The notes beneath the pieces were generated by a model. That model was not told the origin of the DNA. It saw only the letters and a list, made by a program, of their open reading frames with translations, and made no database searches. DNA of 64,000 bases from an uncultured Roseobacter sp. (GTDB lineage Bacteria > Pseudomonadota > Alphaproteobacteria > Rhodobacterales > Rhodobacteraceae). Where the stretch lies: positions 248,001 through 312,000 of the forward strand of contig NZ_CANLQB010000002.1 of the NCBI RefSeq assembly GCF_947493125.1, in the 5' to 3' direction. A program made the translations under genes and the position numbers. This document shows, in pieces, positions 4,657-61,230 of the stretch (its first letter is position 1; each line of letters starts with the position of its first letter).

Positions 4657-5254
4657 GTTCGATCTCTCTCACCTCGAGGACAGCCGCTTTTGGGTTGGTC
4701 TTGCTTTTATGAGCGACAAGATCAAAAGACCACGTCTCACGCGCGATTTCGACCTCTTTCTCCCAGGTTTCGCCCTTGAGAAACACGGCCGCTCCATGTT
4801 TCTTAAGGTGCCTTTGCGCGAACGACAGCAAAGTACCAAGATCCGACAAAGCACGGGCTGAAATCACATCGCATCCGCGCGGATCCGCAGCTTCCACTCG
4901 GTCGATAATGACGTCTGCATTCAAATCGAGCTCACGGATCACGGTACGCAGAAAAGTCGATTTTCGAATATCGCTTTCAATCAGCGTCACTGACATCTCA
5001 GGGGAGCCTTCCTTCGCTAAAATCGCAACAACAAGACCGGGCAAGCCGCCACCACTTCCGATATCCACCCAGTTGTGCGCCGCGTGGCAAAGGGGGTAGA
5101 TCTGGGCAGAATCCCATATATGGCGGTTCCAAATATCTTTAGCACTTGATTTAGATATCAAGTTGATACGCGCGGACCACTTTTGGAGCAGATCGTGATA
5201 AGCGCTTAGCCGATCCATTGTTTCACGTGAAACATCCAGACCGGACAATGTCAT
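4649..5254 (-). CDS. rsmG: 16S rRNA (guanine-N7)-methyltransferase RsmG (GidB)
   Basis: Methylates N7 of a guanine in the 530 loop of 16S rRNA using S-adenosylmethionine. The protein is 201 residues with the SAM-binding loop [11 protein letters not shown] at 63-73 and the RsmG segment [13 protein letters not shown] near 25-37. The start overlaps the mnmG stop by 4 bp. Residues 8-12 (VSRET) are encoded by a parS palindrome at 5219-5234, so this part of the gene serves both as coding sequence and as a segregation site. Confidence 0.95.
5219..5234. other. parS: parS centromere site 1
   Basis: The 16-bp palindrome TGTTTCACGTGAAACA is a perfect match to the widely conserved bacterial parS consensus. 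It lies inside codons 8-12 of rsmG, 0.6 kb upstream of parA, and about 5 kb from the candidate origin. It should be a ParB loading site. Confidence 0.93.
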
Positions 5255-7122
5255 GCGTGTTTCCTTCGCTCAGACTGTTTGATGCGAGCCAAGATCAACG
5301 TCAAAGCCGCCGGTGTCATGCCCTCTATCCGCGATGCTTGAGCCAAAGAGCTTGGCCTTGTCATCTCTAACTTTGCTTTGAGCTCATTGGATAAACCCGG
5401 CAGTTCTTCATAGTCGAAATCGCTTGGAATGGCGTGTTTCTCGTCCTTCTGAAGCAAAGCGATATCTTTTTGCTGCCGCTGGATGTAGTTCGCGTAGAGC
5501 GCCTCCCGCTCCATCTGACGCCGCGTTTCTATGTCGATATGCTCAAAGTTCGAATCCAATTTCGCCACCTCAGCAAAAGAGACATCGGGAAACGCGAGAA
5601 ACTGCATCGCCGTCCGTTTCGATCCGTCCTGGTTCACCTTGATGCCCGCTTCAGATGCCTCTGACGGCGTATAGGTCTCTCTTGTCAGAATATCTCTCGC
5701 GGATTCAAGGCGATCCAGCTTTTCAGCGAAACAGCGCGCGCGCCGATCTCCGACGCAACCCAACGCGAGTCCTGTCGGCGTCAGGCGTTGATCCGCATTA
5801 TCAGCGCGCAACGACAGACGGAACTCAGCCCGCGACGTAAACATTCTGTAGGGTTCTGATACGCCGCGTGTCGTCAGGTCGTCGATCATCACACCGATGT
5901 AACTCTCCGCCCGCGAGAACACCGCCGGCTCCCGCTCTCGGATACTCAGCGCCGCGTTTAAACCCGCCACGAGGCCTTGCGCAGCGGCCTCTTCATACCC
6001 TGTCGTGCCATTGATCTGCCCGGCAAGGTATAGGCCTGGCACATCAGGAAGCGCCAAAGTCCCATCAAGCGCCCGAGGATCGACGTAATCATATTCAATT
6101 GCATACCCTGGCTGCAGAATAGCAGCCTCCTCCAGACCATAGATCGAATGGACATAGTCTTCCTGGATCGCCTCAGGCAGAGAGGTTGAAATGCCGTTCG
6201 GATAAATGGCGTGAGTAGACAGCCCCTCAGGCTCCAAAAAGATCTGATGCGAGGTCTTATCAGCAAACCGAACAACCTTATCCTCGATCGACGGACAGTA
6301 CCGCGGGCCAACCCCATCAATGTGTCCGCCGTACATTGCAGATTTTTGCAGGTTTTTTCGAATGATATCATGTGTTTCTTCATTTGTATGCGTGATGCCA
6401 CATGATACTTGTCTGGCGGAGATACCCTTCGACAGAAACGAAAAAAGAACCGGATCCGCGTCGCCTGGTTGATCATTCAGCACATCCCAACGGATCGTCC
6501 GAGCATCCAGACGCGGCGGCGTGCCCGTTTTCAGCCTTCCCAACGGCAGCTGAAACGAGTCGATGCGCTCCGCCAATTTCACAGACGCATTTTCACCCAT
6601 CCGACCACCTGAGCGCGAGACATCCCCGACATGAATTACTCCTCGGAGGAATGTACCTGTTGTCAGAACCACGCGTTCAGAAATAATCTCGTTTCCGTCC
6701 GCCAGAATCACACCGGTGACTCGGTCTCCCGACATTCGAAAATCGACGACCTCGCCAGTCAAGACGGTCAGATTGTCTTGGTTCTTCGTCTCAGCCAACA
6801 TCTCTGTGTGATAGATGGCGCGATCGGACTGCGCGCGTGGGCCCTGAACCGCCGGGCCTTTTCGCCGGTTCAATAGCCGAAACTGAATTCCAGCCTTGTC
6901 TGCAACGCGTCCCATCACACCATCTAGTGCGTCGATCTCACGAACCAGGTGGCCCTTCCCAAGACCGCCAATCGCGGGATTGCAGGACATCGCACCTATG
7001 CCAGCTTCGGAAAGCGTAACGAGGGCTGTCTTGACGCCCATACGCGCGGCAGCATGGGCTGCTTCGCATCCCGCATGCCCGCCGCCTACAACAACCACGC
7101 CAAAATGTTTCACGTGAAACAC
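5251..7122 (-). CDS. mnmG: tRNA uridine 5-carboxymethylaminomethyl-modification enzyme MnmG (GidA)
   Basis: With MnmE, this FAD enzyme installs the carboxymethylaminomethyl group on U34 of certain tRNAs. Motifs are the N-terminal dinucleotide fold [36 protein letters not shown] and the C-terminal [18 protein letters not shown]. The frame is open further upstream, but GTG at 7120-7122, 4 bp after the mnmE stop, gives 623 residues with the N-terminus FHVKH that is common in related species. That stretch is encoded by the second parS site. Upstream and downstream genes (mnmE, rsmG) are close or overlapping. Confidence 0.95.
7106..7121. other. parS: parS centromere site 2
   Basis: A second perfect copy of TGTTTCACGTGAAACA. 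It covers the first codons of mnmG (encoding VFHVKH) and includes part of its GTG start codon. It lies 1.9 kb from site 1 and 3.2 kb from the candidate origin. Confidence 0.93.
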
Positions 7123-9874: not shown

Positions 9875-10324
9875 TCAGAAGCGAACCACAACCGACAAGA
9901 CGATCAAAACCATCAGAAGTGTCGGCACTTCATTCATCATCCGGTAATGGCGGCCAGAAAGCTGATTGTCTGATCTCAGGAAATCCTTCCGGCGTAACCC
10001 AAGCCAATGGTGAAACCATGTCATGCCCAAGACACCGGCAGCTTTTGTCCAAGGCCAGACCTCAGCCCAACTGACGATCCCGGGTGTGAACACGAGGCAA
10101 AGACCCAGAACCCAGGTGGCGATCATCGCAGGGTTCATGATCACCCTCAGAAGTTTGAGTTCCATTGTCTGAAAAAGCTCGTGCGTTGCACCGTTTTGCC
10201 CGACCTGTTCGGCATGATAGACAAAGAGACGGGGCAAATAGAACAGCCCAGCCATCCAGGCGATGACCGCCATGATGTGGAACGCCTTTATCCATGGGTA
10301 AGCAAGCGCGAGAAGGTCTGACAT
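9875..10324 (-). CDS. hemJ: Protoporphyrinogen IX oxidase HemJ
   Basis: A small heme-containing inner-membrane protein that oxidises protoporphyrinogen IX to protoporphyrin IX in bacteria lacking HemG/HemY-type oxidases. It is 149 residues with four predicted membrane segments and conserved histidines in KAFHIMAVIAWMAGLFYLPRLFVYH and MTWFHHWLGL. It is the last gene before the candidate origin and reads away from it. In other alphaproteobacteria heme genes also flank the chromosomal origin. It may share a transcript with rho, but the 112-bp gap leaves this open. Confidence 0.92.
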   Translation of the reverse strand: MSDLLALAYPWIKAFHIMAVIAWMAGLFYLPRLFVYHAEQVGQNGATHELFQTMELKLLRVIMNPAMIATWVLGLCLVFTPGIVSWAEVWPWTKAAGVLGMTWFHHWLGLRRKDFLRSDNQLSGRHYRMMNEVPTLLMVLIVLSVVVRF

Positions 10325-10728
10325 TTCTGGTCTCCGATCCCTTCGCCTCTCTTATTCATTAATAAAGAAAGAGAAAAGGATGATGATTTGGTAGGTATCA
10401 GGCAATCTGTGGATTACGGTTTTTTGCTCAGACTTATCCGACTGGGGAAAACTCGCCGTACCGGCAGAATGAAATCCAAAATATGGTATATTTTATAACT
10501 ATATCAGTATTTTAATGAGCATCTTGTATCGCAAATTTCGGGATAAGCTTGTGTGTAAAATGACCGCATTCGGCTTGTTCACACAGCTCGTGTTGTTCTT
10601 TTCCGCTGAGGGTCGGAGCGTGGATCTTATGACTTAATGCCCAGGATGTGTTCCTCTTGCGCCATCTCGCTGATTTCCCCAGAAGAACATATTAAGAAAT
10701 CCTTACCACTGTTCACAGGCTTACCAAC
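10325..10728. other. oriC: Candidate chromosomal replication origin (oriC)
   Basis: A 404-bp gene-free stretch between hemJ (reading left) and maf (reading right). Seen: bases 10478-10516 have only 5 G or C in 39, in a GC-rich window. DnaA-box-like 9-mers are at 10552-10560 (reverse TTTTACACA, fits TTWTNCACA), 10408-10416 (reverse TAATCCACA, one mismatch to TTATCCACA), 10575-10583 (TTGTTCACA, one mismatch) and 10709-10717 (CTGTTCACA, weaker). Known: Caulobacter and relatives have their origin beside this gene set (heme genes on one side, maf-aroE-coaE-dnaQ on the other), with parABS close by. The call is an inference from synteny, base composition and gene direction. The same bases must also hold the maf promoter. 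Confidence 0.62.
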
Positions 10729-11328
10729 ATGGCCCAACCGCTCATCTTGGCCTCCTCTTCAGACATCCGGGCCCGACTGTTGCGCAATGCTGGTGTCGAG
10801 GTGTCGGTCCAGCCCGCTCGGATCGATGAAGAGATGGTCCGCGATGCCATGCTTGCTGAACATGCCCCACCCCGGGATATCGCTGATATGTTGGCTGAAC
10901 TGAAGGCCCGGAAAATCAGCGAGAAGTACCCCGATGCGCTTGTGCTCGGGTGTGATCAGGTGCTTGATCACGCAGGTCAACTCCTATCGAAACCAAGGTC
11001 TCCGGAAGAGGCGGAACAACAGCTGCATTCGATGCGAAATGACCGCCACATGCTCCTGTCGGCAGCTGTCATCTGCGAGGCGGGAAAACCGCTGTGGCGA
11101 CATGTGGGACAAGTCCGACTGCGCATGCGCGATGCATCTGATGCCTACATCCGCGGATATGTCAGGCGGAACTGGGCCAGCATTCAGCATTCTGTCGGCG
11201 CATATAAGCTGGAAGAGGAAGGGATAAGGTTGTTTACCCGGATCGAAGGTGATTACTTCAACGTCCTGGGGCTGCCTCTGCTCGAGCTGTTGGCCTATCT
11301 GACGTTGCGAGGAGATCTGGAAGGATGA
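10729..11328 (+). CDS. maf: Maf-family nucleotide pyrophosphatase (YceF type)
   Basis: Maf proteins hydrolyse modified or non-canonical nucleoside triphosphates to monophosphates. The 199-residue protein has the N-terminal LILASSSDIRARLL motif and the catalytic segment LVLGCDQVLDHAG. The CDQ form resembles the YceF subfamily, which acts on 7-methyl-GTP, more than the dTTP/UTP subfamily; substrate is inferred. First gene of maf-aroE-coaE-dnaQ, all overlapping, reading away from the candidate origin. The stop overlaps aroE by 4 bp. Confidence 0.92.
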   Translation: MAQPLILASSSDIRARLLRNAGVEVSVQPARIDEEMVRDAMLAEHAPPRDIADMLAELKARKISEKYPDALVLGCDQVLDHAGQLLSKPRSPEEAEQQLHSMRNDRHMLLSAAVICEAGKPLWRHVGQVRLRMRDASDAYIRGYVRRNWASIQHSVGAYKLEEEGIRLFTRIEGDYFNVLGLPLLELLAYLTLRGDLEG

Positions 11329-52089: not shown

Positions 52090-54525
<2,436 letters not shown>

Positions 54526-54582
54526 TCATGTTTTATAAGGTTTCTAAGGGGGAATGTCACGCAAATGGCACAATATTTTGTG

Positions 54583-55203
54583 TCAGGCGAAGGGGATAAC
54601 CACACCGACCAAGATCAGCAAAACTCCCGAGATCACGTTGATCCGCGCGAGCGTTCGAGGCGCCGTGATCGGGGCCCGCACATGGCCCACGCAGGCGGCC
54701 AGCAACAGGTTGCCAATGAGCGGAATGGCGACCGAGGCGGTGATAATCGCACCGACATCCGGCGCGGTCACAGCGCGCAGGTCGAAGAACCCTGGCAGCA
54801 CCCCGATGTAGAACAGAACCGCCTTCGGGTTGCCGAGGATCGCCACCAGCCCCGCCAGAAATCCTGGCCAGACGCCCGGTCGGGTCAACCGGCTGTCGGT
54901 GCTGATCTTCTGGTCCGCGTGCCGGATCAGCAATAGCCCCATGCCGATGAACACCCCGCAGGCGACCCAGCGCAGCACCGCCATGAACACATCGAAGACC
55001 GACAATACCCAGGAGATGCCCAGCACCGCCACCAGCGGCCAGAGGATGTCCCCGACGGCCACCCCCACCGCCAGTGGCCAGGCCGCGCCAAACCCACCCG
55101 AGAGCGCCCGCGCCATCAGCGCCAGCCAGACCGGCCCCGGCGTCAGGAACAGGATCACCAGCGCGCCGCCATAAGGCAACAGGTCGCTCCAGGTGATGGT
55201 CAC
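54583..55203 (-). CDS. LysE/RhtB family exporter
   Basis: A 206-residue inner-membrane protein with about six helices. The LysE-family start LLPYGGALVILFLTPGPVWLALMARAL and the conserved segment GLVAILGNPKAVLFYIGVLPGF are visible. Such proteins export amino acids or related small molecules. The substrate is unknown. It is inserted between recF and gyrB; its start overlaps the recF stop by 4 bp, so it is read with the dnaA-dnaN-recF group. Confidence 0.9.
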   Translation of the reverse strand: MTITWSDLLPYGGALVILFLTPGPVWLALMARALSGGFGAAWPLAVGVAVGDILWPLVAVLGISWVLSVFDVFMAVLRWVACGVFIGMGLLLIRHADQKISTDSRLTRPGVWPGFLAGLVAILGNPKAVLFYIGVLPGFFDLRAVTAPDVGAIITASVAIPLIGNLLLAACVGHVRAPITAPRTLARINVISGVLLILVGVVIPFA

Positions 55204-56303
55204 GGCTGCATCACCAGCTCTGATACACCTGCGCTGTCGCGCACCTCGACATATTGCGCGCGGTCGCCCATGGTCGCAAAGAGCTCCGGCTCCGTGCCCG
55301 TCATCCAGGCCTGCGCGCCGAGGGCTGCGATCTCGTCGTAAAGCGCCGCGCGCCGGTCCGGGTCCAGATGTGCGGCCACCTCATCGAGCAGCAAGAGCGG
55401 CGGCGCCCCGAAATCCCGCGCCAGCGCCCGTGCATTGGCGAGGATCAGTGAGACCAGCAGGGCCTTCTGCTCGCCGGTCGAGCAGTCCCTCGCGGGCACG
55501 CCTTTCGCCGCATAGACACCGGAGATATCCGCGCGATGCGGCCCGATCAGGCTGCGCCCCGCTGCGACATCCCGCGGGCGGCTCTCAGCCAGCGCCGTTC
55601 GTAACTCGTCAATCGTCTGGGGCAGTTCTCCCTCCGCATGGGTCAACGTCAGCTCCGCCGCCGGAAACGCCGTCTGCGCGCCCTCCTGCGCCTCGGTCAG
55701 TTGCGCCAGAGCCATCCGCCGGTTGGCATCGATCACCACCCCGGTCTCCGCCATTTGCGTCTCTAACGCAGCGTACCAGGCCGGGTCTCGCACCATGTCC
55801 TTCAGCAGCCGGTTGCGCTCGCGCATGGCGCGCTCATAGGCCAGCGTCGCCTCCGCATGCCCCGGCTCAAAGCTGAGCGTCATACGGTCGAGAAACCGCC
55901 GCCGCCCCTCCGCCCCTTCGATCCACAACCGATCCATCGCGGGGATCAGCCAGAGCACCCGCGCTATGCGCCCCAGCGCCACCTGCGGCGCAGCTTTTTC
56001 GTCAATGCGCACTTGCCGGGCCGCGCCACCTTCCGACCAGATCTCGATCTCATGCAGCTGATGCAGCGACTGCAACACGCCCGACAGCTTCCAGCCCAGG
56101 GCCTCGGGCTGCCGCGTCATGTCTTCGGCACTCGACCGCCGCAGCCCGCGCCCGGGCGAGAACAGCGACACCGCCTCCAGCACATTGGTCTTGCCTGCGC
56201 CGTTCGCGCCATAGAGCGCCACGGGCCGCCCATCGAGCGCCAGCCGTCCCACCTTGTGTGACCGAAAATGCGACAGGGTCAGCGATGTCAGATACAGCGC
56301 CAT
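55200..56303 (-). CDS. recF: DNA replication and repair protein RecF
   Basis: An SMC-like ATPase that helps load RecA at single-strand gaps. From ATG 56303 it has 367 residues. Seen are LTLSHFRSHKVGRLAL, Walker A YGANGAGKTNVLEAVSLFSPGRGLR, the ABC signature region CSTGEQKALLVSLILANA and Walker B PLLLLDEVAAHLDPDRR. It lies 50 bp after dnaN, the standard dnaA-dnaN-recF-gyrB order, here with a LysE gene added. Confidence 0.95.
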   Translation of the reverse strand: MALYLTSLTLSHFRSHKVGRLALDGRPVALYGANGAGKTNVLEAVSLFSPGRGLRRSSAEDMTRQPEALGWKLSGVLQSLHQLHEIEIWSEGGAARQVRIDEKAAPQVALGRIARVLWLIPAMDRLWIEGAEGRRRFLDRMTLSFEPGHAEATLAYERAMRERNRLLKDMVRDPAWYAALETQMAETGVVIDANRRMALAQLTEAQEGAQTAFPAAELTLTHAEGELPQTIDELRTALAESRPRDVAAGRSLIGPHRADISGVYAAKGVPARDCSTGEQKALLVSLILANARALARDFGAPPLLLLDEVAAHLDPDRRAALYDEIAALGAQAWMTGTEPELFATMGDRAQYVEVRDSAGVSELVMQP

Positions 56304-56353
56304 CGCTCGCCTTTCATTGTTCGTCAAATATGCCTGCCGGAGGCAAAATCCTC

Positions 56354-57472
56354 CTAAACGCGCATCGGCATGACCACATAAACCGCTGATTGGTCATTGC
56401 CTTCGCGCATCAGGGTCGGATCACCCGAGGAGTTGAAGAGGAAGACCGCGTTCTCGCGATCCACCTGGCTTGCGATCTCCAGCAAGTATTTGGCATTAAA
56501 GCCAATCTCTAGCCGTTCATCGCCATAGGCCACGGCCAGCTCTTCCTCTGCGGCGCCACTATCCGGCGCGTTCACCGACAGCACCAACCGGTCTTCGTCG
56601 AGCTGCAGCTTCACCGCGCGTGAGCGTTCGGAGCTGACCGTCGCCACCCGATCGACCGCCTGCGCAAAGTCCGAAGCATCCACCTCCAGCTTGCGCGCAT
56701 TGTTCTGCGGAATGACCCGCGTGTAATCCGGGAAGGTGCCGTCGATCACCTTCGAGGTCAGCGTGATATCAGGCGTGGCAAAGCGCACCTTGGTCTCGCT
56801 CACTGACACGGCGATCTTCATCTCGTCATCGTCCAGCAGCTTGCGCAACTCGCCCACGGTCTTGCGCGGCACGATCACGCCGGGCATGTCCGAAGCCCCC
56901 TCCGGCAACTCCGCGTCGATCCGCGCCAGACGGTGCCCGTCGGTTGCCACACAGCGCAGCACCTGGCCGCCCTCCGCATCCGAGACGTGCATATAGACGC
57001 CGTTGAGATAGTACCGTGTTTCTTCTGTCGAAATCGCGAACTTCGACTTGTCAAAGAGTCTTCGCAGCACCGGCGCGGAGGCCGAGAAGTTCGATGCGTA
57101 CTCCGAGGACGCCATGACCGGGAAGTCTTCCTTGGGCAGCGTCGCGAGCGAGAAATTCGAGCGCCCCGCCTCAACGGTGAGCCGACCCGTCGCGCCATCG
57201 GCGGTCAGCGTGACCAGCGCGCCATCGGGCAGCTTGCGCACGATCTCATGCAGGGTTGTTGCTGATACAGTGGTCGCCCCGGCCCGCTCCACCTGCGCGG
57301 GCGCCTTGTCGACCACCTCGATATCGAGGTCGGTGGCGCGAAAGCTGACATCGCTGCCTTCAGCTTCGATGAGGACATTGGCGAGGATCGGGATCGTATT
57401 GCGCCGTTCGACGACGGACTGGGCTTGCGATACGGCCTTGAGCAGGGACGCGCGTTCGATGCTGATTTTCAT
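56354..57472 (-). CDS. dnaN: DNA polymerase III beta subunit (sliding clamp)
   Basis: The ring-shaped processivity factor of the replicative polymerase. ATG 57472 gives 372 residues starting MKISIERASLLKAVSQAQSVVERRNTIPILANVL; the frame is open 19 codons upstream, but those residues do not fit the family. The protein ends YVVMPMRV, matching the conserved clamp C-terminus. It is separated from dnaA by 142 bp, which holds a DnaA-box-like 9-mer and a hairpin, so it may have its own promoter. Confidence 0.97.
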   Translation of the reverse strand: MKISIERASLLKAVSQAQSVVERRNTIPILANVLIEAEGSDVSFRATDLDIEVVDKAPAQVERAGATTVSATTLHEIVRKLPDGALVTLTADGATGRLTVEAGRSNFSLATLPKEDFPVMASSEYASNFSASAPVLRRLFDKSKFAISTEETRYYLNGVYMHVSDAEGGQVLRCVATDGHRLARIDAELPEGASDMPGVIVPRKTVGELRKLLDDDEMKIAVSVSETKVRFATPDITLTSKVIDGTFPDYTRVIPQNNARKLEVDASDFAQAVDRVATVSSERSRAVKLQLDEDRLVLSVNAPDSGAAEEELAVAYGDERLEIGFNAKYLLEIASQVDRENAVFLFNSSGDPTLMREGNDQSAVYVVMPMRV

Positions 57473-57512
57473 GTGCTTGATCCTCCCACCAGTCCGGAGG
57501 ATCAAGGTACCC

Positions 57513-57521
57513 TTATCCACC
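57513..57521 (+). promoter_or_regulatory. DnaA-box-like 9-mer upstream of dnaN
   Basis: TTATCCACC differs at one base from the DnaA box TTATCCACA. It lies 41 bp before the dnaN start, in the dnaA-dnaN spacer. It could mediate control of dnaN by DnaA. A single near-match may also occur by chance. Confidence 0.4.
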
Positions 57522-57571
57522 GACTTCACAAGTGTTTTATTGGTTTGTGTGGTGGAAAGGGCAGGGCGTCA

Positions 57572-57604
57572 AGACCCGCCGCTTGCTTACGGCCAGGCGG
57601 GTCT
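57572..57604 (-). terminator. Hairpin after dnaA
   Basis: Perfect 9-bp arms AGACCCGCC / GGCGGGTCT with a 15-nt loop, 11 bp past the dnaA stop. There is no T run after it on the minus strand, so it may only attenuate or protect the dnaA mRNA end. Confidence 0.5.
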
Positions 57605-57614
57605 CAATGTGTGA

Positions 57615-58988
57615 CTATTCTTCCAGCGCGCGGCGCAGAAGTTCCAAATCTTCAGCGATCTGGCCGTCCTGGGTTTTCAACTCTTCAATGCGCTTCACGC
57701 CGTGCATGACGGTGGTGTGGTCCCGCCCGCCGAAGCGGCGCCCGATCTCGGGCAGGGACCGCGAAGTCATCTTCTTGCAGAGATACATCGCCACTTGACG
57801 GGGCCTTGCATAGCTGCGCAGTCGCTTGGGTCCAATCATGTCAGACAGGCGAATGTTGTAGTGATCGCTGACCTTGCGCTGGATCTCCTCGACGGTGATC
57901 TTGCGTTCCGAGGCGCGCAGCACGTCCGACAGACAATCCTGCGTCAGCTCCATGTTGATCTCGCGGCCCACCAGCGAGGCGAAAGCAAAAAGCCGCGTCA
58001 GCGCACCTTCCAGCACCCGCACGTTGGTGGAAATGCGATGCGCGAGGAATTCAAGCACACCCGCTTCGACCTCCAGATCCGGGTAGTTCACGCGCTGCTG
58101 TTCGACCTTGCTCTGCAGGATACCCAGGCGCAGCTCATAGTCGGTCGGATGCAGGTCCACCACCAACCCGCACTGCAGGCGCGACTTCACGCGGTCTTCG
58201 AGATCCTTGATCTCGCTGGGCGAGCGGTCTGCCGAGATGATGATCTGTTTGTTCTGATCCACCAGCGCATTGAACGTGTGAAAGAACTCCTCCTGCGTGG
58301 AATCTTTACCCGCGATGAACTGCACATCATCCACCATCAGCACATCGACCGAGCGAAAGATTTCTTTGAAATCCATCATCTTGCGGTCGCGGAGGGCTTG
58401 CACAAAGCGGTACATGAACTGTTCGGCGGAGAGGTAGAGCACGTTCATTTCGGGTCTGCGGGCGCGCAACTCGTGGGCAATCGCGTGCATCAGGTGGGTC
58501 TTACCCAACCCAACGCCACCGTATAGGAACAAGGGGTTGAAGGTGACCGGACCACCCTCGGCCACGCGACGGGCCGCAGCATGCGCCAATTCGTTGGGCT
58601 TGCCCACCACGAAGGTGTCAAATGTGAATCGCTTGTCGAGCGGCGCCGTCGTCAATGCGTTGCTCGCCGGTGATTTCACCGCTCTCGGTGCATTGGGTCT
58701 CTGTTCGGTCACGGCTTCCTCCTGCATGTCGGCGCCTGCGCCCACGGGGGCAGGGACCGCGAACCGCAGGCGGCGCAAGCTCGGATCCTCGGTCTTGAGT
58801 TCATGCAGGATCAAATCCGCAAAATTCTGACTGACGTAGTTGCCCAGGAAATTCGTCGGCACGTCAAAGGTCGCGATCCCGTCGTTTGCCGCCCGAAACT
58901 CAATCGGCTCGATCCAGTTGGTATAGTTGTTTTGCCCTACCGTCTTTAGCAGTCTCTGCCTCAACTGCCCCCACTTCTCTTTAGTCAT
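57615..58988 (-). CDS. dnaA: Chromosomal replication initiator DnaA
   Basis: Binds DnaA boxes at oriC, melts the origin and loads DnaB. From ATG 58988 it has 457 residues. Domain I is 1-75 (KWGQLRQRLLKTVGQNNYTNWIEPIEF), with a linker to about 115. The AAA+ domain has Walker A LYGGVGLGKTHLMHA at 155-169 and VLMVDDVQFIAGKDSTQEEFF. Domain IV carries the DnaA signature GGRDHTTVMHGVKRI. An in-frame ATG at 59078 with a strong AGGAG site would add 30 residues. The gene lies about 47 kb from the candidate origin, as is usual in alphaproteobacteria where dnaA and oriC are apart. Confidence 0.97.
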   Translation of the reverse strand: MTKEKWGQLRQRLLKTVGQNNYTNWIEPIEFRAANDGIATFDVPTNFLGNYVSQNFADLILHELKTEDPSLRRLRFAVPAPVGAGADMQEEAVTEQRPNAPRAVKSPASNALTTAPLDKRFTFDTFVVGKPNELAHAAARRVAEGGPVTFNPLFLYGGVGLGKTHLMHAIAHELRARRPEMNVLYLSAEQFMYRFVQALRDRKMMDFKEIFRSVDVLMVDDVQFIAGKDSTQEEFFHTFNALVDQNKQIIISADRSPSEIKDLEDRVKSRLQCGLVVDLHPTDYELRLGILQSKVEQQRVNYPDLEVEAGVLEFLAHRISTNVRVLEGALTRLFAFASLVGREINMELTQDCLSDVLRASERKITVEEIQRKVSDHYNIRLSDMIGPKRLRSYARPRQVAMYLCKKMTSRSLPEIGRRFGGRDHTTVMHGVKRIEELKTQDGQIAEDLELLRRALEE

Positions 58989-59460
58989 GTTAGACCTGTT
59001 TTCCTTTTCGCGTTCCCAGTTCTGGCGCCGCACCCGATGTAGATGCCGCACCGCCTCTTCGGTCTTGTTCGCGAACATACCTCTCCTGTCCTGCTCCCAC
59101 ACGAAACCAGGTCAACGTCCAATGGACATTTACAGATTAGGCAATGCCTGACCGGATCGTGCACCCTGCACCGGGTGCGTGTTCCAATCAGACGACACCG
59201 TCCGCTCTTTTTTGACAGGGCAAACCGCTGTTGCGCAGCATTTGCAGACTGAAGGCGTCTCCTTTTTAGTGACACCCAGCCCCTGAATCTCTCTCTGTCG
59301 CAGCAGCGCGAAGAGCTCTTCAGGGCCTGTCCCCCCATGACGAAATGAATCGCACGATATAGGTAGCAACTTCGCCCGCGGCACGGCAACTGATCTTCAT
59401 TCTTGACTCTGCATTTTCAAAAAAGAATCTCTTGGCGCGCAAAAAGAGTCTCATAAATGC
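58989..59460 (-). promoter_or_regulatory. dnaA upstream region
   Basis: A 472-bp stretch between dnaA and the rpsT terminator. The dnaA frame remains open through the first 114 bp. I see no DnaA box, no second gene and no convincing -35/-10 pair. The dnaA promoter should lie here. The left part contains a possible alternative dnaA start (59078). Confidence 0.4.
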
Positions 59461-59974: not shown

Positions 59975-61230
59975 GTGGCCCCTCCCGCCCAGCGCTGTCT
60001 TGACCGATGTCGCCGCGCGTTGGTAGCCACCGAGCGCGACACGCCGCGATGGGGCGGTGTGCAGCCATCAGGAGTGCGGTTCGACCAGATCTATGGCGAC
60101 AACAGCGGTACGGGCGGAGGCCAGACCCCGTTCGATACCGATAGGGACGGCGCGGCCACCCAGGAAGACGAGTTCGTCTCGATCAGCAATGACAACGCGA
60201 CGCCCCTCGATATCTCAGGCTGGCAGATCTGGTCGGATTCCACTGGGAGCGGCGCGCCGGACAGGCCGGTGGACGGGCTCTATCGCACCTTTCCGCCCGG
60301 CACGGTTCTGCAACCCGGCGAGACGCTATACATCGTGAACGAAATCACCGGCCCCGCGCCCAGCTGGCTCAGGAAGCCTCCGAAGGCGGGGTCGAGTCTG
60401 GTTCAGGTGGTGTGCGGACCAACCTGCTCACCCAAGGAAGCAGCGGCCGCGCAGGCGAGGCCATTGCACTCGTGGATCCACCCAGCGGCGGCTATATCGT
60501 TTTCAACATGTCGACCCGCCAGCCCAATGTGCAGAATGAAACCGGATTTCCGGGCACCAACAACGTCGGCACTGAGGAGGGCCACGCGGTCATGCCCGAT
60601 TAATCGGCGGGCACTGCGTACCGCTATAGTCCCGGCACTGGCACCTACCGAGCGCGGGATGTTGGCGTCCCCTGTTTCGCGGCGGGCACCCGGATTCGTA
60701 CCCCTGAGGGTCCGGACCCGGTGGAGGATCTGCAGGTGGGCGATCTGGTTCTGACGGCGATACTTGGCCCGCAACGTATTCGTTGGCGCGGCAGCCGCCC
60801 GCTCAATGCCGCGCAGATGGCCTTTGCCGGTCAACATCCGATCGAATTCAAACCCGGTAGCCTTGGGCCAGACCTGCCGACGCGCAGCTTGCGCGTATCG
60901 CCGCAGCATCGCTTTCTCCTAAACGGAGACTGCCTTGTCCCGGCCCGCGGCTTGGTCAATCTGCCGAAAGTCCGCGTGATGAAGGGCTGTCGGCAGGTCA
61001 CTTACCACCATATCCTGCTGGACCGTCACCAGGTTATCTTCGCCGAAGGGGTCGCCACCGAGAGCCTGATGCCAGGCCGCACATTTCTGGCGCGCTGTAC
61101 CATCTCGGATCGGCTGGACATCATGCGGCTCTCCGGAGCCGACCCAGCACCGGCGCTGCGCTGTCTCACGGTGGCGGAGACACGCCGCTGTCTGCGCGAT
61201 CATGACGGCGCGCTGCAGGCGTCAGGCTGA
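59975..61230 (+). pseudogene. Broken lamin-tail/Hint domain gene
   Basis: Three pieces of one protein in two frames. The first (59975 to about 60375) has a lamin-tail-like domain (DQIYGDNSGTGGGQTPFDTD, SISNDNATPLDISGWQIWSD, LQPGETLYIVNEITG). Near 60375 the reading frame must shift by one base to continue as AQEASEGGVESGSGG...VGTEEGHAVMPD. A TAA stop at 60601-60603 then precedes, in the same frame, the Hint domain VPCFAAGTRIRTPEGPDPVEDLQVGDLVL, with its nucleophilic Cys, running to 61230. No good start or ribosome site is visible at the 5' end. Hint proteins of this type are common in Rhodobacterales, probably exported. A sequencing error could mimic one lesion, but hardly both. Confidence 0.75.

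Follow-up and report, generated by a model that had tools for sequence, protein, structure and literature searches.

The question raised by this locus is whether the short spacer between hemJ and maf is the replication origin (oriC) of the Roseobacter chromosome, as the original prediction held. The stretch of DNA that was analysed (64,000 nucleotides, here called the window) corresponds to C2:248001-312000, C2 being a 540-kb contig of a 4.83-Mb genome in 32 contigs. The spacer measures 404 nt and separates hemJ (9875-10324, minus strand) from maf (10729-11328, plus strand), with rho-hemJ on one side and maf-aroE-coaE-dnaQ-secB on the other. Its GC content is 0.423, no ORF of at least 100 aa was found within it, and the sole ATG-to-stop stretch of more than 25 codons lying entirely inside it has 40 codons. 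The description of a gene-free 404 bp with outward-reading flanks was thus borne out. NCBIfam and Pfam models confirmed ParB, RsmG, MnmG, MnmE, Rho, HemJ, Maf, AroE, CoaE, SecB and FxsA, as well as a DnaQ-like exonuclease domain, among the neighbouring genes; the best match of the ParA-family ATPase gene lay under the curated cut-off. Sites of parS had been placed 3-5 kb away and dnaA about 47 kb away, and the two exact parS copies and dnaA were found at these approximate distances (Table 1); 0.10 parS copies would be expected by chance at up to three mismatches. Two ORFs overlap at 59975-61230, one resembling a Lamin Tail Domain (slightly below the Pfam cut-off) and the other containing a Hint domain; the pair may represent one frameshift-split protein or two genes.

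Table 1. Features of the hemJ-maf spacer and its surroundings (window coordinates; proportions refer to aligned spacers)
Feature	Position	Strand	Remark
parS, exact	5219-5234	+	5.1 kb from spacer
parS, exact	7106-7121	+	3.2 kb from spacer
Putative oriC spacer, hemJ-maf	10325-10728		length conserved in genus and in the 76 hemJ-bearing of the best 80 of 445 named loci
AT/purine-rich tract ending in GGATGATGAT, likely DNA unwinding element	10350-10388		conservation; edge of box cluster
GTAGG(G) motif, between unwinding tract and box 1	10391-10395	+	conserved among 52 modules
DnaA box 1 (TGTGGATTA)	10408-10416	-	<=2 mismatches in 85/86, <=1 in 47/86
Weak DnaA box 2 (TTATCCGAC)	10434-10442	+	<=2 mismatches in 27/86
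AT-rich 39-nt core, holds IHF-like site	10478-10516		between boxes; weakly conserved, 0.52 bits
IHF-like site (TATCAGTATTTTA vs WATCAANNNNTTR)	10502-10514	+	<=1 mismatch at aligned position in 50/86
DnaA box 3a (TTATCCCGA)	10538-10546	-	<=1 mismatch in 48/86
DnaA box 3b (TTACACACA)	10550-10558	-	<=2 mismatches in 35/86
DnaA box 4 (TTGTTCACA)	10575-10583	+	<=2 mismatches in 37/86
Block 5 (family consensus TTATCCTTGTCC), degenerate in window	10593-10604	+	conserved block in 86 spacers
CtrA-like site, TTAA-N7-TTAC	10692-10706		<=1 mismatch in 17/19 genus rows, 11/67 other rows
DnaA box 6 over maf start codon (TTACCAACA; family consensus TTATCCACATG)	10721-10729	+	2 mismatches in window
dnaA	57615-59102	-	46.9 kb from spacer; reads toward spacer

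At least three DnaA-box-like 9-mers had been claimed for the spacer. Seven were found, one with a single mismatch to TTATCCACA (box 1) and six with two mismatches. Counted at up to two mismatches per 500 bp, this is the highest density on contig C2, tied with one other place. At up to one mismatch, the spacer with its one box is unremarkable beside two C2 places that contain pairs within 500 bp (313492/313562 and 319654/320046; two pairs seen versus 2.5 expected). Box counting alone is therefore weak evidence, and it is conservation that carries the case. The predicted 39-nt core with only five G or C was located as well, being the only 39-mer with at most five G or C on the 540-kb contig. To its left lies a conserved element (10350-10416) consisting of an AT/purine tract, the GATGATG/GTAGGG motif and box TGTGGATTA. 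The gene for IHF-alpha is encoded in the same genome, with a match above cut-off. As for CtrA, the pattern TTAA-N7-TTAA was represented in the spacer once at up to one mismatch and three more times at two mismatches, and no spacer among the best 80 of 445 named loci contained more than one exact match. The CtrA-like site is mainly a feature of the genus, and it might equally be assigned to the maf promoter.

We compared the spacer with its counterparts in close relatives (the named ones being Roseobacter; genus set of 19 genomes) and in the best 80 of 445 named loci, 76 of which carry hemJ beside maf. Spacer length was 400-404 nt in all 19 genus genomes and 371-414 nt (IQR 403-405) in the 76 hemJ-bearing loci. 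The ratio of IQR to median amounted to 0.005, whereas three further gaps between genes of the same loci, all of them shorter, gave 0.24-0.31. Two exact parS copies were present upstream of maf in 73 of these 76 loci. From 95 spacers, 86 remained for alignment after identical ones had been dropped. Mean information was 1.24 bits for 10350-10397; over the full spacer it averaged 0.68 bits, and over the centre 0.52 bits. The conserved blocks were picked after the alignment had been seen, and sequences that share ancestry do not count as independent events. None of 556 background tests exceeded 4/86 at up to one mismatch. For box 1, background positions reached at most 17/86 (up to two mismatches) and 4/86 (up to one). 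Box 6 was present with at most one mismatch in 84/86 spacers when 1 nt of play was allowed and in 83/86 without it. Block 5, taken as a full DnaA box, reached two or fewer mismatches in only 18/86, barely over background. Within GTAGG, two of the five columns were invariant among 52 modules, and three were at least 90% identical. The original prediction had named a lack of conservation of the spacer and its boxes in relatives as refuting it, and both were found to be strongly conserved.

Spacing between the elements is similarly constrained. At the aligned position of the IHF-like site, the count given in Table 1 compares with 7/86 for the second-best position, and the best IHF match lies 93-96 nt past box 1 in 56 of the 87 spacers having one with up to two mismatches. 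A free search 60-140 nt past box 1 (89 spacers) gave a match with at most one mismatch in 64%, against 10% of shuffles, and the reverse-strand pattern still scored in 21/89 (24%) in the same AT-rich segment. A GATAA occurred 110-150 nt past box 1 in 61/86 spacers; in these, box 1 and the box 3a GATAA were 133-135 nt apart, and another 185-186 nt separated the GATAA from maf (IQR in both cases).

The left module also identifies the locus when gene context is ignored. From 53 diverse modules, one (L209) was dropped on account of an apparently misplaced box, and the remaining 52, all adjoining maf, served to build a sequence-only profile (R1). Every one of the 19 genus genomes gave one strong match to R1, and there were two weak extras (E about 0.2). 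At E<=0.01, one site was found in 124/149 genomes in an order-level draw (the listed ones all being members of the same family) and in 91/149 in a family-level draw; the two draws overlap, and both were run with stricter filters. No match at this threshold was obtained in the other 25 and 58 genomes, respectively, and every genome with any match had a single one. The best-scoring loci retrieved contained maf and rho in 55/55 cases and hemJ in 50/55. The site of genome G033, the weakest among the order-level matches listed, is located between hemJ and maf, as is that of G037. These two genomes and 18 without any R1 match were additionally searched with Maf. In all 20, maf was divergent from hemJ or rho across a gap of 389-533 nt, and in 17 a box with at most one mismatch was present within 520 nt before maf.

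Which tract of the spacer unwinds is a separate matter. The AT-rich 39-nt core is real, yet it is more likely a region bent by IHF than the element that unwinds. We rejected it in the latter role because it sits amid boxes, is weakly conserved (0.52 versus 1.24 bits) and holds an IHF-like site, and because unwinding elements adjoin a box cluster and are never found within it, as stated in a review (PMC4285127). From the sequence pattern, the tract at 10350-10388 is the likelier unwinding element. Duplex stability does not decide between the two tracts, since the averages are alike (-1.105 kcal/mol per step for the centre and -1.101 for the left, with the left tract less stable in 36/86 spacers) and in the window itself it is the centre that is less stable (-0.975 versus -1.106). 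A check for a DnaA-trio showed central-A triplets running in one register, which is partly created by the anchoring motif; totals over 11 triplets were 7.8 versus 6.4 and 5.8, a small difference.

The GC skew had been predicted to reach its minimum at the spacer, and this held only in part. Along contig C2, cumulative skew dips locally at 40 nt from the spacer, but the lowest point of the whole contig is C2:315217, about 56 kb further right. After correction for gene orientation (403 ORF-based genes), GC3 skew is clearly negative left of the spacer, near zero at 10.7-52 kb (with a confidence interval spanning zero), negative at 52-68 kb and positive past 68 kb. Outside the window, C2:380001-410000 (window coordinates 132-162 kb) has a lower GC content of 0.53-0.54 and little skew; possibly, it is acquired DNA. 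Among the relatives, G010 (one 5.08-Mb contig) has the skew minimum of a 140-kb stretch at position 2701993, inside its own spacer, and 24 of its 27 sampled 20-kb blocks carry the expected sign, assuming an origin in the spacer and a terminus near the antipode. In G267, left blocks were negative in 9/9 cases and right blocks positive in only 6/11, and the skew of G006 is ambiguous across about 80 kb on the maf side. No skew switch was detected at the origin module of G033, and the eight 10-kb blocks of G037 put the change of sign 43-83 kb left of the module. The latter two genomes belong to one genus and consist of a single contig each; provided that these contigs are circular, dnaA lies at a distance of about 0.62-0.64 Mb. 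The missing switch and the remote dnaA suggest that these chromosomes have been rearranged. Taken together, skew supports the spacer in one genome and is not decisive overall.

A rival explanation places the start of replication close to the dnaA block or around C2:315 kb, with the hemJ-maf spacer conserved for another reason. The contig minimum and the change of corrected skew from negative at 52-68 kb to positive further right would fit, as would the leftward orientation of gyrB, recF, dnaN and dnaA (52090-59102), which all point toward the spacer and hence head-on to a fork coming from it. Moreover, the only two box pairs of the contig (up to one mismatch, within 500 bp) fall at C2:313.5 and 319.7-320.0 kb. 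However, these pairs sit within long ORFs and do not exceed chance level, while the long ORF-free interval nearby (C2:315938-316301) has a GC content of 0.65 and contains no box at up to two mismatches. In the window's own genome, R1 matches the spacer alone. Both G010 and G006 are colinear with the window from -48 to +52 kb around the spacer, and G010 nevertheless has its skew minimum in the spacer; on account of this colinearity, a recent inversion within +-50 kb was also dropped as the source of the skew offset. Finally, dnaA is no fixed landmark of the origin, because its distance from maf (about 45-222 kb) and its side (maf side in 13, hemJ side in two) vary among the 15 of 19 genus genomes in which the pair can be read on one contig. 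We therefore regard a start of replication at either of these places as very unlikely; the likely source of the offset is the dnaA block (52-68 kb), which lies at different distances from maf in different strains.

Alternatively, the spacer could be a divergent promoter or leader of hemJ and maf, controlled by DnaA, IHF and perhaps CtrA, and devoid of origin activity. A conserved CTCCG adjoining hemJ fits a hemJ ribosome-binding site, and the CtrA-like site together with box 6 is situated at the start of maf. Four named loci lack hemJ beside maf. In one of them the contig ends 248 nt before maf, and in the other three (Thalassovita/Thalassobius) rho borders the spacer directly while the left module is kept. 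The module is thus not merely a hemJ leader, and a hemJ leader as such was rejected on the basis of these three loci. Regulation of the two genes would account poorly for a constant length maintained across a poorly conserved middle, and for a single site per genome near parS, so that we give this explanation hardly any credence.

Our reading is instead that the spacer (10325-10728) is very probably the chromosomal oriC, a continuous DnaA-dependent origin, as originally predicted. It is supported mainly by conservation in relatives and draws on the elements present, their fixed spacing, the single site per genome, the proximity of parS and the skew minimum of G010. Among the features expected of an oriC, a box cluster at fixed positions (its boxes being individually weak in the window), an AT-rich tract beside the cluster and a single R1 site in every genome with a match were observed. 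According to the mechanism we propose, DnaA would occupy box 1 as well as the boxes to the right of it. A bend introduced by IHF between boxes 1 and 3a would return this right-hand DnaA array to the vicinity of box 1, and the DnaA filament nucleating at box 1 would melt the AT/purine tract on the hemJ side (10350-10388), where helicase would be loaded, and ParB at the two parS sites would subsequently segregate the newly copied region. More tentatively, and with rather more doubt than confidence, we propose that the Rhodobacteraceae origin might be an orisome of rigid geometry, in which almost base-exact distances separate box 1, box 3a and the box at the maf start, together with the IHF bend, although the intervening DNA is free to change, and in which melting would proceed via a family-specific GATGATG-NNN-GTAGGG instead of the canonical DnaA-trio or 13-mers.

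In earlier work, oriC was placed in 101 Rhodobacteraceae by Ori-Finder, GC disparity and proximity of parAB, with eight strains left unassigned (PMC6699656), and GC skew with Ori-Finder was used for R. sphaeroides (PMC6315104). The parAB genes have been suggested as an anchor, and CtrA is described as dispensable for viability in the Rhodobacterales studied, yet affecting replication in some (PMC8116508). A 2026 study determined marker frequency in Cereibacter (Rhodobacter) sphaeroides 2.4.1 and three Paracoccus strains, and it states that the oriC given in databases is in some cases not the true origin (PMC13342612). No statement on Rhodobacteraceae was found in the accessible part of PMC4588119, and the literature searched, which included few subscription journals, yielded no description of Rhodobacteraceae origin anatomy or of a fixed spacer length. 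The fixed geometry, too, was not found in that literature. A motif able to single out one site per genome from sequence alone could serve as an origin locator for draft genomes. Furthermore, the fixed spacing offers a clear test of IHF and box phasing in melting in Rhodobacteraceae.

In Escherichia coli oriC, an AT-rich unwinding tract at the edge is followed by a box in TGTGGAT orientation, an IHF site and more boxes. The elements of the Roseobacter spacer occur in the same order, whereas no 13-mer repeats were seen in it, its IHF-like site lies about 94 nt from box 1 and its span is longer. Several genes near the origin of Caulobacter crescentus are shared with the hemJ-maf locus. The immediate flanks differ: they are hemE and COG1806 in Caulobacter (PMC1914354), as opposed to HemJ (or rho) and Maf here, with dnaA 47 kb away. 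Like our spacer, Cori is intergenic and contains DnaA boxes and one IHF site (PMC1914354), the likeness being at motif level only on our side, but it carries five CtrA sites compared with one near-match in the Roseobacter spacer. The hemE origins of Wolbachia, Rickettsia and Ehrlichia are also AT-rich, with DnaA and IHF sites and a length of about 380-455 bp in most of the tabulated genomes (PMC1914354); they differ in flanking genes and sequence. Finally, the basal unwinding system of Bacillus subtilis, formed by DnaA-box and DnaA-trio, resembles the left module in that its box is adjoined by a purine-rich strand carrying short repeats of triplets (PMC6669920), although the repeats in our spacer read 5'-GATGATG and not the 3'-GAT-5' consensus, save for one TAG in GTAGGG.
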